The position numbers and the translations under genes were made by a program. Positions 6,776-64,000 of a DNA stretch of 64,000 nucleotides are shown here, piece after piece; position 1 is the stretch's first letter, and the number at the start of each line of letters is the position of its first letter. The stretch spans positions 1,805,518 to 1,869,517 of the forward strand of contig NZ_OY782498.1 in NCBI RefSeq assembly GCF_963677845.1, read 5' to 3'. The notes below the pieces were generated by a model. The model was not told the DNA's origin and ran no database searches. It worked only from the letters and a program-made list of their open reading frames with translations. The DNA comes from an uncultured Pseudodesulfovibrio sp. (lineage in GTDB: Bacteria; Desulfobacterota; Desulfovibrionia; Desulfovibrionales; Desulfovibrionaceae).

Positions 6776-7672
6776 ATGGCCGGCGTTCTGGAAACAAACA
6801 TCACCGAATATCCGCTCATTTCCAAGGGCAAGGTACGCGACATCTATGAAATTGATGACGACACCCTGCTCCTCGTGACCACAGACCGCCTTTCAGCGTT
6901 CGATGTGGTCATGCCTGATCCCATCGAAGATAAGGGCAAGGTCCTCAACCAGATCACTTTGTTCTGGATGAAAATGATGGAAGACCTCGTGCCCAATCAT
7001 ATAATCGCCACCAATGTGGACGACTACCCTGAGCCGCTTCATAAATACAAAGCGGAACTTCAAGACCGCAGTGTGCTTGCCAAAAAAGCCAAGCCCCTGC
7101 CCATCGAATGCATCGTGCGCGGTTTCATTACTGGTTCCGGTTGGAAGGATTACCAAAAAACTGGTGAAGTCTGCGGCCACAAGCTGCCCGCTAACCTGAA
7201 AGAATCCGAGATGCTTGAAAAGGCGTTGTTCACCCCATCCACCAAAGCTGATCTCGGCGACCATGATGAGAACATCACGCTGGATCAGGCTGCCGACCTG
7301 CTCGGTGAAGAGATGATGCGCAAGGTGGAAAAACTGACGCTGGACATTTACACTCGCGCTCGCGACTATGCCAAGGAACGCGGTATCCTCATTGCCGATA
7401 CCAAGTTCGAATTCGGCACAATTGATGGTGAATTGATCTTCATTGATGAAGCCCTGACACCGGATTCTTCCCGCTTCTGGCCTGAAGAAGGTTATGAACC
7501 CGGCAAATCACAGCCCAGCTTTGACAAGCAATACTTCCGCGATTGGTTGGAAGAAATCGGCTTCAACAAACAGCCCCCTGCACCAAGTATTCCGGCTGAT
7601 ATTGCTGCACAGACTCGTGCCAATTATCTGGAAGCATACAAACTTCTGACAGGTGAAAACCTCGAAGTATAG
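6776..7672 (+). CDS. purC: SAICAR synthase
   Basis: Phosphoribosylaminoimidazole-succinocarboxamide synthase (298 aa) condenses CAIR with aspartate in purine synthesis. It shows the ATP-binding start KGKVRDIYEID, TDRLSAFDVVMPDPI, the substrate motif PIECIVRGFITGSGWKDY and IADTKFEFG...DEALTPDSSRFW near the C terminus. At 298 aa it belongs to the longer class rather than the roughly 240-aa enterobacterial class. Its stop codon lies inside the AGGAGG of the following micro-ORF, so the two are likely translationally coupled. Confidence 0.95.
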   Translation: MAGVLETNITEYPLISKGKVRDIYEIDDDTLLLVTTDRLSAFDVVMPDPIEDKGKVLNQITLFWMKMMEDLVPNHIIATNVDDYPEPLHKYKAELQDRSVLAKKAKPLPIECIVRGFITGSGWKDYQKTGEVCGHKLPANLKESEMLEKALFTPSTKADLGDHDENITLDQAADLLGEEMMRKVEKLTLDIYTRARDYAKERGILIADTKFEFGTIDGELIFIDEALTPDSSRFWPEEGYEPGKSQPSFDKQYFRDWLEEIGFNKQPPAPSIPADIAAQTRANYLEAYKLLTGENLEV

Positions 7673-7681
7673 GAGGCTCCC

Positions 7682-7831
7682 ATGCCTGAATGGTTGCAAC
7701 TCGTAGGCCTTGTTATTCTTGGGCTTGTTATCGGACGAATGGTCCGTGGCAAATTCGGCGGAGGCGGCTGAGGCCCCTCAAATGACAAATGCGGCTGGAC
7801 GCCGCCGGAAAAAGATGATCAAGATAAATAG
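7682..7831 (+). CDS. Candidate small membrane selenoprotein (in-frame UGA at 7769-7771)
   Basis: A strong AGGAGG, seven bases before the ATG, overlaps the purC stop. The first 29 codons encode one hydrophobic helix (WLQLVGLVILGLVIG), a basic patch (RMVRGKF) and GGGG. Next is UGA, and the same frame stays open for 19 more codons (GPSNDKCGWTPPEK..., hydrophilic, one Cys seven residues after the UGA) before TAG. A SECIS-like hairpin (7791-7805) follows the UGA at 24 nt. With selenocysteine insertion the product is 49 aa with a cytoplasmic Gly-rich Sec tail, faintly like the GGU-G tails of eukaryotic SelK/SelS. The alternative is a 29-aa membrane peptide ending at UGA. I do not recognise a bacterial family. 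Confidence 0.6.
7791..7805 (+). promoter_or_regulatory. Putative bacterial SECIS hairpin
   Basis: GCGGC-TGGAC-GCCGC forms a perfect 5-bp stem with a 5-nt apical loop, UGGAC. The loop begins 24 nt after the last base of the UGA. Known bacterial SECIS elements have a short upper stem, a small loop with G among its first two bases, and about 16-37 nt from UGA to loop; this element fits all three. No computation was run. Confidence 0.5.
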
Positions 7832-7951: not shown

Positions 7952-8242
7952 ATGGCTAACAACTACGAGACGCTCGTGCTTCTCTCCCCGGAGTTGGCTG
8001 AGGAAAACAGGAAAGAAATCCTGGAAAACCTCACCACCATCGTGGACCGTGAAGGCGGCAAAATGGTTGAGACCGATGATTGGGGCATGCGCCAGCTGGC
8101 CTACCCCGTCGAAAAGCAGACCCGTGGATACTACGTCCGCCTTGTGTACGCCGCTCCCGGCGCACTGGTTGCCGAACTGGAACGCAACATCCGCATCACC
8201 GACGGCATCTTCAAGTTCATGACCGTCAAACTGGCTGCCTAG
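7952..8242 (+). CDS. rpsF: 30S ribosomal protein S6
   Basis: S6 (96 aa) sits on the small-subunit platform and pairs with S18. The sequence has the family's [14 protein letters not shown] start, the [23 protein letters not shown] core, and the FKFMTVKL end. AGGAG lies eight bases before the ATG. It starts the conserved rpsF-rpsR-rplI cluster. Confidence 0.97.
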
Positions 8243-56250: not shown

Positions 56251-58158
56251 TCAAGAACGTTTGCGGAGATGGCGTACGTCTCCAACGCGAACCGTCAATT
56301 TCTCTTTATCAAAATACTCCAGTATCGGAATAAGATACTTACGCGAGAGCCCTGTTATTTCCTTACAGTCAGGGGCGGACATTTCTTGATTATCCGCAAA
56401 AAAAGCAACTATCCGGCCTTGAAGGTCATCCAAAGCCGCCTTGTGATAATACATGTCACCTTTGATGCGTACCAACTCACCTTGTTCCTGCAACAACTTC
56501 AAGACACCGGAAGCCTGCTTGAAATCCAGGCCTAGTGGTTCAAGTACATCCTTGAGATTGGGCGGGGTACCGCCTCCATTGGTGTAGGCTCCAAGAATAG
56601 TCTCTCGCACTTTTTCCTGATCTGAAGCCAACGAGACCTTGTGCCCCTTCAGCTTAAGTAATTCCTGTTCGGCGACAATCTCACCAGCCTTAAGCATTCG
56701 TTCAACCACAAAATGAAATAATTTGGGAGGCAAATCATTGCCCCAAGAGGAAGCCAGTTCACCTCGTTGCACACCGGGCTTCATGGAATCCCTGGCATGA
56801 AAATCTTTCAAGAAAACCAGCAAACTCTCGCCAAGTGACGCCGCCAGCTGCCCGCCGGCATACCGACGCGTTTCCTTGTCAAACAACACGGACTTCTGCT
56901 GACCACCAAGTAGTCCCAAAGTCTTCTCCAACCCCTTTGTTTCCAGATTGGTCATGGTCAGTAGTTGTGCGAAGGTCAATCCGACAGGACCTGCCAACTC
57001 CAATTGGGCTGCTGCCACATCTTCGGGCGTCTCGGCAGCAAGTTGTTGCATAAGCTCCACCTTGTCCGAGAATCGTTTTATAGTATGTCCGACTGGTCCT
57101 ATAACCCGACCACCGGCAAAGGCCCTTAGCGGGGAAAATGCGCGCAAAACGATACGGTCACCGTACACTGCGGCCAAGGGCTCCGAGAAACGGACCTGAC
57201 AGACGCACGTTTCACCGGGTTTTAGGTCTTCTCGATCCAACAGATAGACACGAGCCAGCACTTCACGCGCACCGTGATGAAAATGAATTTCCCGCCGATG
57301 CTTGAGCGGCAGGTGTGAAGATTCCAGAACGGTTAATTCGATGTCCCATACCGTAGAAGGGAACAATGACCCCGGGCGAGCCAACACATCTCCCCGCCTG
57401 ATATCGTCCACTTCCAGCCCATGCACATTAATGGCAGTCCGTCGTCCGGCCTGAGCTGTCTCCACGGTCTCACCATGCGATTGCAGACTGCGCACCTTGG
57501 TTTCTGTCCCTGTCGGGTAAAGGATAATATCCTCACCAACGGAAACGGAACCGGAAACCATAGTCCCGGTGACCACAGTACCGTGTCCTTTCATGGTAAA
57601 CACACGATCAACGGGCAAACGAAATAAATCGGAACGACGACGTGGCTTGAATTCTGCCATCAAGATCCGCAACTGATCCTTGAGCGCATCCAGTCCATCA
57701 CCAGTATGTGCAGACACTGGAATAATCGGTGCACCAGCAAGAAATGTCGGTTCAAGATAAGACGCAACTTCTTCTTCCACCATCTCCAACCATTCCGCAT
57801 CCACCATGTCAGTCTTGGTCAAAGCAACAACGCCGGTGGTTACACCAAGCAACTGACAAATTTCCAAATGCTCACGGGTCTGGGGCATAATCCCCTCATC
57901 CGCAGCAATGACCAAAACTACAAAATCAATCCCGGCGGCACCGGCCACCATATTTTTTACGAATTTTTCATGGCCAGGGACATCGACAATCCCCAACCTG
58001 CTTCCCTCTCCCAAATCAAGAAAAGCAAAACCAAGTTCTATGGTGATGCCGCGTTTTTTCTCTTCTGATAATCGATCACAATCGATACCGGTAAGCGCTT
58101 TGATAAGAGTTGTCTTTCCGTGGTCGATATGACCGGCTGTTCCCATGATAACGGGCAT
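56251..58158 (-). CDS. selB: Selenocysteine-specific elongation factor
   Basis: A 635-aa EF-Tu-like GTPase that brings Sec-tRNA to UGA codons marked by a SECIS hairpin. G motifs are [14 protein letters not shown] (G1), [12 protein letters not shown] (G3) and ALTKTDM (G4). Residues 175-350 hold the EF-Tu-like beta domains, and 370-635 hold four winged-helix RNA-binding modules, the last ([21 protein letters not shown]) typical. The genome therefore can decode UGA as selenocysteine. Start at [14 protein letters not shown]. Confidence 0.95.
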
Positions 58159-58374: not shown

Positions 58375-59274
58375 ATGTGTACTGCAAAAAGAATCACACG
58401 AACCGCACTGTTCACAGCGCTGTTTATCTGCATTGCCCAGATACCAGCCTTCGCGACTGACACACAAATCGGGGAAGTCATTGCCATGGCAGGAACCGTC
58501 ATTGCAGAACAACCTAACGGGACTAGTCGTCAACTTGAACTGAATCAACCGATTATCACTCAGGACACCATCGCCACAGGAACAAAAAGTTCCATCGAAA
58601 TTCTTTTCAAAGACGAATCAGTCTATTCCCAAGGTCCGGATTCCCGAATTTCGTTAGATAATTTTGTTTATTCAACTAACGTATCAGCATCAAAACTCCT
58701 TTTCAAAATGGGCGAAGGAACTTTCAGATACGTAACCGGACAAATTGTTAAAACAAACCCGGATGCATTCGCACTCCAGACCCCCACTACCACCATAGGC
58801 ATCAGAGGCACCGAAGTTTTTGCGATTGTCACTCCCGACAAAGAAGAAATCGGCAATACGAAACTCAGTAAAAAACACACTATGACCGTTGGCGATAAAG
58901 CACTAAATATACCACGAACCTCGGTTAACGTTAATCCTCAGACCGGCGCCGTATCCGACCCAACTCCAGTTTCTCAAGAAACCATCAATAAAATCGTGAA
59001 GGCAGCTCCAATGACATCTCTGGGCGAACTCGGCAACCCTGGTCCAAAGAAGGATCTCGAACGCAAAGTACAATCTTTCAAACAGCAGATAGAACGGAAC
59101 AAGGAAAGTCTCGATGGTTTAAGTAATAAACCTGATTACGAAAAACTTCACAGAATCAAAGTTCAAAAAACCAATCAAGAGACAACAGAAAAAGACCGAG
59201 ATAGCGGTGGCAACTCCGGAGACCTTGGCGGCGGTGAAGGTGGTGGTGATGGCGGTGGAGGCGGTGGACATTAA
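58375..59274 (+). CDS. FecR-domain protein, copy 1
   Basis: A 299-aa exported protein. A signal peptide (ALFTALFICIAQIPAFA) precedes a FecR beta-sandwich at residues 28-145: GEVIAMAGTVIAEQ, SSIEILFKDESVYSQGPDSRISLDNF and SKLLFKMGEGTFRYVTGQIVK, then TPTTTIGIRGTEV, the hallmark of the family. After a helical segment the chain ends in a Gly-rich tail (GDLGGGEGGGDGGGGGGH). FecR-like domains sense or scaffold at the cell surface. It is followed by a Sel1-repeat gene, and the pair is duplicated next door. Confidence 0.88.
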   Translation: MCTAKRITRTALFTALFICIAQIPAFATDTQIGEVIAMAGTVIAEQPNGTSRQLELNQPIITQDTIATGTKSSIEILFKDESVYSQGPDSRISLDNFVYSTNVSASKLLFKMGEGTFRYVTGQIVKTNPDAFALQTPTTTIGIRGTEVFAIVTPDKEEIGNTKLSKKHTMTVGDKALNIPRTSVNVNPQTGAVSDPTPVSQETINKIVKAAPMTSLGELGNPGPKKDLERKVQSFKQQIERNKESLDGLSNKPDYEKLHRIKVQKTNQETTEKDRDSGGNSGDLGGGEGGGDGGGGGGH

Positions 59275-60038: not shown

Positions 60039-60998
60039 ATGATATCCATGAGAATTACACAGTGCGTTATGGCTCTCCTCATAACGGCTGTCTGCATAAG
60101 TCCTTCTTTGTCGATGGCAGCCGCACCTTCTCAAGCCCCCGACCCAATAGGTGAAGTGATCCACATCATGGGATTTGTCTCGGCCGAAATGCCGGGGAAA
60201 GAAGCCAGAAAACTTGAATTGAAAAGTCCGGTTTTCATTCATGAAGTTATTGTCACAGGAAGAACCGGCAACGTGGAAATCCGCTTCAAGGATGACACTA
60301 TTTATTCACAGGGAAATGAATCGACTCTTTCCTTGGACGACTATGTCTTTTCCGAAAACCCTTCTGCCTCGAAGCTTCTTTTCAAAATGGGCGAGGGGAC
60401 ATTCCGTTTTGTCACAGGTCAGATCGTCAAACAAAATCCTGAGGCCTTTGCCCTGACAACCCCTATGACCTCCGTTGGCATTCGGGGCACGGAGCCGTTT
60501 GCCATTGTCGAACCAAAACGAGAGCTTATAGGCGTTCTCGAAATAGCTTCTGGACACACCGTAATCGTTAGTTCTGAAAAAAATGCCATATCAATGTCCG
60601 AGGCAAATCTCATGACCAAGATTGAACTTGGCCGCCCTCTTTCTCCACCAGCCCCGGTCCCTGCTACAGTACGCGAAAAAGTAATCAAAGCTGCCCCCAT
60701 GACCAGTCAGGGCGAGTTCGGGTTGTATGGTTCAAAAAAAGAACTGCAACTCAAAGCTGATGGTTTCAAGAACCTCCTGGATTTTGAAAAAAAACAAATT
60801 GGTGGATTGAACGTTCGTCCAGACTACCAACAACTGCGCAAAATTGCTGTGCAGGAGCGAGCCTTCAAAAATGCCACAAATGAAAGAGATGGAAAGACAA
60901 AGGCGGAAGCAGGCTTGGGTGGCGGTGAAAACACAGATACCGCTAGCAGCGAGAGCGAAGGCGGCGGAGCAAGTAGTCCTGCAGGGTCTACACCATAA
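60039..60998 (+). CDS. FecR-domain protein, copy 2
   Basis: A 319-aa paralogue of the gene at 58375, with signal peptide (TQCVMALLITAVCISPSLSMAA) and the same FecR core: GEVIHIMGFVSAE, NVEIRFKDDTIYSQGNESTLSLDDYVFSENPSASKLLFKMGEGTFRFVTGQIVK (short anchors: VEIRFKDD, LLFKMGEGTFRFVTG) and TPMTSVGIRGTEP. The C-terminal tail is Ser/Gly-rich (SSESEGGGASSPAGS). ATGs at 60039 and 60048 are both possible. The two copies differ more in the tails than in the core, fitting an old duplication. Confidence 0.86.
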   Translation: MISMRITQCVMALLITAVCISPSLSMAAAPSQAPDPIGEVIHIMGFVSAEMPGKEARKLELKSPVFIHEVIVTGRTGNVEIRFKDDTIYSQGNESTLSLDDYVFSENPSASKLLFKMGEGTFRFVTGQIVKQNPEAFALTTPMTSVGIRGTEPFAIVEPKRELIGVLEIASGHTVIVSSEKNAISMSEANLMTKIELGRPLSPPAPVPATVREKVIKAAPMTSQGEFGLYGSKKELQLKADGFKNLLDFEKKQIGGLNVRPDYQQLRKIAVQERAFKNATNERDGKTKAEAGLGGGENTDTASSESEGGGASSPAGSTP

Positions 60999-63076: not shown

Positions 63077-64000
63077 TTATTTTTCGGTCAGGGAAACCAC
63101 GGCCTGCTCCAACGCGGAGGCGACCATTTTCAATTCTGTCGAAGCCAATGTGCGCGGATCAATGAGAAATTCATCATCCTCAATACGCGCCACCAGCGGC
63201 GGGTCGGTCTGAAGAAGCGCGTCCTTCAAATCGCCCACGGAAATATCTTTTACGGCAATAGAGACCATGGTTCCGGGCAGGTCATATTCAGGGAAAGCCC
63301 CACCCCCCACTCTGGATGATCCTTTTTTCATGGAAACCACAGCCCGTTCAGCAAGGGCCTGACGGATAGCATCAGCCAAACGACGCGCCTTGCTCTTAAG
63401 CGCTTCCTGTGATGCGGTGATCATTTTCAAGGTCGGCACCTTGCGCCGCGCTTCATCCATGTCGAGATAAAGACGCAAGGTCGCCTCAAGAGCAGCCAAT
63501 GTCATTTTATCAATACGCATGGCCCGATTGACCGGATTCTTCTTGATACGATCAATATATTCTTTCCGTCCGACAATAATACCTGCCTGCGGACCACCAA
63601 GCACCTTGTCGCCAGAAAAAGACACCACATCCGCGCCTTGCGTCACTGTCTGTTGCACTGTCGGTTCACCCAGCAAACCTTCTCCCTGCAACGAGTAGAG
63701 AGACCCGCTCCCAAGGTCTTCGATAACTGGCAGATTATACTTGTCACCCAATTCACGCATTTCCGGCAGAGTTACTTCCTTGGTAAACCCGACCACTCGG
63801 AAATTGGACGTATGTACCCGCATGAGCGCACCAGTCTCATCGTTAATGGCATTCTCATAATCATGGACATGACTTCGATTGGTGGCTCCTACTTCGTGCA
63901 GAATCGCCCCGGACTTGGTCATGACATCCGGGATACGAAACGATCCACCAATCTCGACAAGCTGCCCGCGAGACACGATAACCTCACGTCCCTTAGCCAA
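63077..64000 (-). CDS. selA: L-seryl-tRNA(Sec) selenium transferase, C-terminal part (runs off the right edge)
   Basis: 307 residues of the PLP enzyme that converts Ser-tRNA(Sec) to Sec-tRNA using selenophosphate. The PLP lysine lies in FSGDKVLGGPQAGIIVG, and EVGATNRSHVHDYENAI, VIEDLGSGSLYSL and KNPVNRAMRIDKMTLAALEATLRLYL are family landmarks (motif anchors: EVGATNRSHVHDY, NRAMRIDKMTLAALE). The N-terminal third is outside the window. With selB it shows the host makes selenoproteins. It is upstream of the M18 gene on the same strand. Confidence 0.95.
   Translation of the reverse strand: MAKGREVIVSRGQLVEIGGSFRIPDVMTKSGAILHEVGATNRSHVHDYENAINDETGALMRVHTSNFRVVGFTKEVTLPEMRELGDKYNLPVIEDLGSGSLYSLQGEGLLGEPTVQQTVTQGADVVSFSGDKVLGGPQAGIIVGRKEYIDRIKKNPVNRAMRIDKMTLAALEATLRLYLDMDEARRKVPTLKMITASQEALKSKARRLADAIRQALAERAVVSMKKGSSRVGGGAFPEYDLPGTMVSIAVKDISVGDLKDALLQTDPPLVARIEDDEFLIDPRTLASTELKMVASALEQAVVSLTEK

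Follow-up and report, generated by a model that had tools for sequence, protein, structure and literature searches.

A predicted 49-residue membrane selenoprotein downstream of purC in Pseudodesulfovibrio, with homologues across its phylum

The short gene directly downstream of purC in an uncultured Pseudodesulfovibrio sp. (Desulfovibrionales, Thermodesulfobacteriota in the NCBI taxonomy) very probably encodes a selenoprotein with a single N-out/C-in helix and a cytoplasmic selenocysteine (Sec); from sequence analysis, we put the probability of this reading at about 0.93. Decoding of its in-frame UGA as Sec is strongly supported by the conservation of the UGA, protein-level constraint, exchange between Sec and Cys, and a covarying SECIS element. 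The window, i.e. the whole stretch of 64,000 nucleotides that was analysed, belongs to a source genome of 3.70 Mb in one contig.

With TGA translated as U, the frame reads MPEWLQLVGLVILGLVIGRMVRGKFGGGGUGPSNDKCGWTPPEKDDQDK*. It comprises 29 codons, the UGA (7769-7771), 19 further codons and a TAG at 7829-7831, and a Cys is situated seven residues after the Sec (U+7). The AGGAGG, which runs over the purC stop (TAG, 7670-7672), is followed by a gap of 5 nt to the ATG at 7682. All of these elements had been pointed out in the first-pass annotation and are present in the sequence; a SECIS-like hairpin at 7791-7805 had gone unmentioned there. The proposal of a 49-residue membrane selenoprotein is supported by the TGA conservation, the constraint, the SECIS and the Cys forms described below, and the family turned out to be far larger than supposed.

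Table 1. Features of the predicted selenoprotein gene and its surroundings, in positions of the window
Feature	Position	Strand	Basis
purC, upstream neighbour	6776..7672	+	TIGR00081 above cut-off
AGGAGG ribosome-binding site, overlapping the purC stop	7671..7676	+	sequence
Predicted 49-residue selenoprotein gene, including stop TAG	7682..7831	+	TGA=U translation; homologues in 34/36 genus genomes
Predicted transmembrane segment, about residues 5-22, N-out/C-in by charge, limits approximate	7694..7747	+	hydropathy and positive-inside count (119 members)
UGA, predicted as selenocysteine, codon 30	7769..7771	+	TGA in 169 analysed genes, Cys codon in 5
TGC codon of Cys37, presumed Sec partner	7790..7792	+	Cys at U+4 to U+8 in 107/119 members
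Putative bSECIS upper stem-loop GCGGC[UGGAC]GCCGC	7791..7805	+	loop 24 nt past UGA, -8.2 kcal/mol; in agreement with published constraints
rpsF, downstream neighbour, named by eye, synteny query	7952..8242	+	tblastn synteny
selB	56251..58158	-	TIGR00475, 399 bits vs cut-off 242
selA, 5' end cut by window edge	63077..64000	-	TIGR00474, 424 bits vs cut-off 268

Conservation and decoding of the UGA

A protein search of 98 relatives yielded full-length homologues with an internal TGA. The genus profile matched 34 of the 36 searched genus genomes, and all 34 matches were read with TGA at the position; G008 and G014, in which no match was obtained, have completeness values of 82% and 81%, respectively. 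With wider profiles, 140 of 247 genomes of the order (E<=0.001) and 157 of 395 genomes of a phylum sample, which includes some family members, gave a match, these order and phylum tallies being based on profile score with part of the matches read individually. An every-fourth subset of the phylum sample gave 40 of 80 (E<=0.01), where G400 looks like a chance match and G348 is unread. Some 40-50% of the sampled genomes of this first phylum have matches. Twenty fetched matches of the phylum sample had been listed as stop-free, and in all of them (20/20) the TGA is found at the expected place just beyond the aligned end. A second phylum was picked after a Cys form had appeared in the genome behind locus L075, and the sampling covers two phyla; since this sample was built around a MAG labelled Blastopirellula marina, the phylum is presumably Planctomycetota. 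Here, 27 of 294 genomes matched, namely 22 with TGA, 4 with a Cys codon and 1 judged to be chance.

The analysed set consists of 169 genes with TGA at the position, including the window gene, and five homologues with a Cys codon (loci L106, L260, L267, L268 and L278), three of which (L260, L267 and L278) are Cys-rich. The first-pass annotation had named a TAA or TAG at this position in relatives as evidence against its reading, and none was seen among the homologues read. It had also suggested looking for Cys homologues in relatives negative for selA and selB; the five Cys forms bear out the first part of this idea, while the fifth one, in a genome of the window's own family (G119), is accompanied by selB. 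Several candidates were excluded. In a search by DNA pattern, 20 of 28 matches were family members, and L054, L055, L057, L059, L061, L064, L072 and L075 are non-members at the matched spot. Left out of the counts were G043, G308 (at L123), G310 and G123, which carry FeoB-associated-like ORFs with no UGA at the place, as well as G136, with its UGA elsewhere, and L290, judged to be chance. L282 was read as TGA, but the hairpin script failed to place it, and L028 and L030 are duplicates of G015 and G044. A second, weaker TGA-bearing match lies near the first in G240 (L092), G250 (L119) and G242 (L113).

Conservation past the UGA, the other check proposed in the first-pass annotation, was then quantified. 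The pN/pS was 0.36 for U+1 to U+12 and 0.30 for the 22 N-terminal codons anchored on the EW motif (19 sequences); an earlier value of 0.80 ahead of the UGA was discarded, as differing lengths of the Gly run had caused misalignment. As controls, a stretch of 12 codons beyond the final stop gave 0.98 (10 sequences), and the two alternative reading frames gave 1.16 and 1.65 (20 sequences). Among 23 aligned members of the genus and one neighbouring genus, L7, the UGA residue, G31 and W39 are invariant, and C37, G38 and P41 are kept in at least 90%. Judged by these comparisons, the codons after the UGA evolve under constraint at the protein level.

The strict bacterial SECIS rules given in section 5 of PMC13188914 were applied with a continuous stem required. 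The window gene conforms to this model, as do 105 of the 169 members, compared with 2.3% among shuffled sequences and 2.2% among 4219 control windows, rates that represent non-independent trials because the members share ancestry. None of the five Cys forms conforms (0/5). The hairpins contain 55 distinct stem sequences, and the 64/169 failures include some narrow misses and others without a clear hairpin. Under a looser test (uninterrupted stem of at least 5 pairs, loop start at +20 to +35), 113 of 123 TGA members scored, against a background of 23% for dinucleotide-shuffled windows and 39% for other stretches of the same loci.

Covariation was measured on UGA-anchored windows grouped by the spacing in the protein rather than by the hairpin. 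For the group with Cys at U+5 (66 windows), the best scanned centre gave z=8.4, reached by 0/300 column shuffles; the same centre was on top in the first 25 windows of this group (z=6.1). Two adjoining centres (z 4.9 and 3.1) also beat all 300 shuffles, the former coinciding with the hairpins of several members from the second phylum. For the U+6 windows, the hairpin centre ranked second (pairing 0.83 vs 0.80), and in the U+7 group, to which the window gene belongs, it was outside the four best, a result that says nothing because the stems there hardly vary. These data indicate that the stems keep their pairing through changes on both sides, i.e. they covary. Folded singly, the hairpin region of the window was no stabler than its shuffles (z -1.1; equalled or exceeded by 28/200), and the bases of the hairpin have other partners in its minimum-energy fold. 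The hairpin signal, as far as these analyses go, emerges across members and is not significant in single-sequence folding.

The presence of selA and selB in the window, noted in the first pass, was confirmed by family models above cut-off, with selA truncated by the window edge. selD lies elsewhere in the same genome (L291, C1:3423424-3424353), so that selA, selB and selD are all present. This selD has an in-frame TGA itself, and its product is probably a selenoprotein too. A scan of the window and the selD locus located no tRNA-Sec. A selB match above cut-off was obtained in 71 of 80 genomes of the phylum subset and in 53 of 56 of a family set. In the 80-genome sample, carriers of the gene make up 36/71 of the selB-positive and 3/9 of the selB-negative genomes (p=0.48), an association that is uninformative because selB is nearly universal there. 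Three carriers lack a full selB match; their genomes are 85%, 89% and 94% complete, the last with 7% contamination. Between selB and selA of the window, two similar ORFs on the opposite strand (58375-59274 and 60039-60998) look FecR-like by eye, and the former ends in a long Gly run.

Architecture, variants and gene neighbourhood

Topology was counted in 119 of 123 members, four without a Met in range being left out. These proteins have a median length of 50 residues (45-66), a strongly hydrophobic stretch ahead of the Sec and a tail with about 39% charged residues. The C-terminal side is more positive than the N-terminal side in 110/119 members, which predicts an N-out/C-in topology. A Cys is found at U+4 to U+8 in 107/119 members, and this near Cys is missing in 12/119. 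Outside Desulfovibrionales, the UGPxxxxCGWxPP tail is replaced by UMSxSC with a Lys-rich end, and (I/V)LP(K/R)(L/F/M)G(V/I) after the helix is retained. Two variants deviate in the Cys position. In genus g7 (L192-L198), most of the members read lack a near Cys and have a GGCG-type tail with a Cys well downstream. In L026 (G019) the downstream Cys is lost and the Sec is directly preceded by a Cys (GGGGCUGPAAGGW), which looks like a shift of the partner.

The coupling to purC proposed in the first pass stands for many Desulfovibrionaceae, in which purC, the gene and rpsF form a same-strand run according to tblastn synteny. It does not extend to the other loci examined, where assorted housekeeping neighbours such as fabI, an aminotransferase, an FmdB-like ORF, serS, engB-hisG, gltX and ccdA/tlpA were seen, mostly named by eye from the sequence without a family scan. 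The purC link is local and therefore says little about function, and purC was set aside as a functional clue because the neighbours vary across loci. Recurring neighbours are a ccdA-like gene in 4 loci and a tlpA-like gene in 3. In the loci examined, the gene moves among housekeeping neighbours and no partner is named by context. dsrA was present in 24/39 carriers and 15/41 non-carriers (p=0.043), a weak association that ignores kinship and counts the unread G348 among the 39.

Proposed mechanism and competing readings

Translation would start at 7682, and the hairpin just past the UGA would recruit SelB, so that Sec is inserted at codon 30 and translation continues to the TAG. In the product, one transmembrane helix would be followed by a short turn, which places the Sec about ten residues away from the membrane, by a Cys, usually another 5-7 residues on, and by a tail that is charged and probably unstructured. 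Such a pairing of Sec and Cys near the membrane suggests a selenenylsulfide redox centre tethered to meet a membrane partner. At roughly even odds, we infer a reversible selenenylsulfide bond between the two residues and, for the protein, a role as redox relay or reductase tethered to the cytoplasmic membrane on its inner side.

Conventionally, the UGA would be read as an ordinary stop, leaving a 29-residue membrane peptide and a downstream frame open by chance, and the non-significant folding of the single hairpin sequence agrees with this. However, protein-type constraint continues beyond the UGA, the Cys is conserved, as are a Trp and a Pro in the window's genus, and Cys codons replace the TGA in five homologues. 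Together with the bSECIS enrichment (stated as about 46-fold, with rates of 105/169 versus 2.3% and 2.2%), these observations argue strongly for Sec, and we regard an ordinary stop as extremely improbable. The UGA might also serve as a selenium-dependent switch, in which termination or Sec insertion yields either the 29-residue peptide or the 49-residue protein, possibly acting on a purC-rpsF transcript. The position of the gene inside a same-strand run, with purC before and rpsF after it in many Desulfovibrionaceae, would suit such a role, but the neighbours change across the phylum while the protein and hairpin persist, which implies no fixed target, and a switch of this kind seems improbable.

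The main rival to the redox relay accepts the selenoprotein and assigns its Sec and Cys to the binding of metal, selenide or persulfide, in a small membrane-anchored trap or chaperone. Here, the Cys-rich character of three of the five Cys forms and a weak, sub-threshold likeness to PF12669 (E=0.03, 15 bits, cut-off 27) are in favour, whereas the partner Cys is usually single and no recurring transport gene was noticed alongside among the neighbours named by eye. We consider such a binding role possible but doubtful. If the relay reading is true, the family would have been overlooked since it is very short, resembles an ORF of 29 codons and is poor in Cys homologues. The family would extend the prokaryotic selenoproteome by a family widespread in sulfate-reducing and related bacteria, in which selenoproteome counts may be low. 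A single-pass selenol anchored on the cytoplasmic side of a bacterial membrane would also turn the role of such a residue into a directly testable question.

Comparison with known families

The first-pass annotation knew of no matching bacterial family, and this still holds for the collections searched. The window protein matched no model of PHROG or NCBIfam and none of Pfam at gathering level, and some 11-12 further forms (7 + 5, one scan set each) likewise had no match in NCBIfam or, at gathering level, in Pfam. Table 1 of PMC13188914 (2026) comprises 119 prokaryotic selenoprotein families, and none of its entries is described as a protein of about 50 residues with a single helix and U and C 5-7 apart. 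With the small redox selenoproteins of that table, the family shares a Sec at the presumed redox centre, a Cys nearby, Sec/Cys homologues and a bSECIS. The nearest motif among the PMC13188914 entries is that of 'DG' (GUxG, NF049953); the window protein has no match to this 172-position model, whose best match in the genome lies elsewhere with 10.9 bits against a cut-off of 130. A sequence search of the PDB gave weak helix matches only (best E 0.21). The family is new to the family models, the 2026 table and the literature searched, a comparison that covers families other than those without a public model (e.g. GOS_A). For Salidesulfovibrio onnuriiensis IOR2, deep-Sep reports 10 known selenoprotein genes and 0 new ones (PMC12013277), whereas G024, presumably this organism, carries two tandem TGA-bearing members (L097); therefore, by gene counts only, selenoproteins of very short length appear to escape at least one current method.

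The sole match of the window protein in a Pfam scan at E<=10 was the FeoB-associated Cys-rich membrane protein family PF12669, at the sub-threshold score given above and with a short sequence. The layout is shared, i.e. a small protein with an N-terminal helix followed by a basic/Gly-rich stretch and Cys. PF12669-like Cys-rich ORFs, with a small helix and GCGC, were seen in G043 (L121), G310 (L122), G308 (L123) and G123 (L124); they differ in having no UGA at the place, and match the genus profile weakly (E ~7e-4 to 3e-3). These ORFs may be distantly tied to the selenoprotein family.

In SELENOK and SELENOS, a single transmembrane helix leads into a Gly-rich, poorly structured region on the cytoplasmic side, which bears the Sec. 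The likeness to them drawn in the first pass holds for the layout, a predicted single helix followed by a cytoplasmic Sec (hydropathy and charge, 119 members), and fails for the Gly run ahead of the U, which is typical of the window's genus and replaced elsewhere by PKLGIKG or PKLGVPT. In contrast to these eukaryotic proteins, the present family is bacterial, about 50 residues long, and has its Sec in mid-chain, with a Cys and a charged tail after it; the two are likened by layout only. A broader and more tentative proposal is that the family represents an old membrane-tethered selenol relay, common to the phylum of sulfate and metal reducers and the second phylum (presumably Planctomycetota), which would shuttle electrons between thiol systems of the cytoplasm and a membrane partner and would be a counterpart of SELENOK and SELENOS in layout, not in descent.
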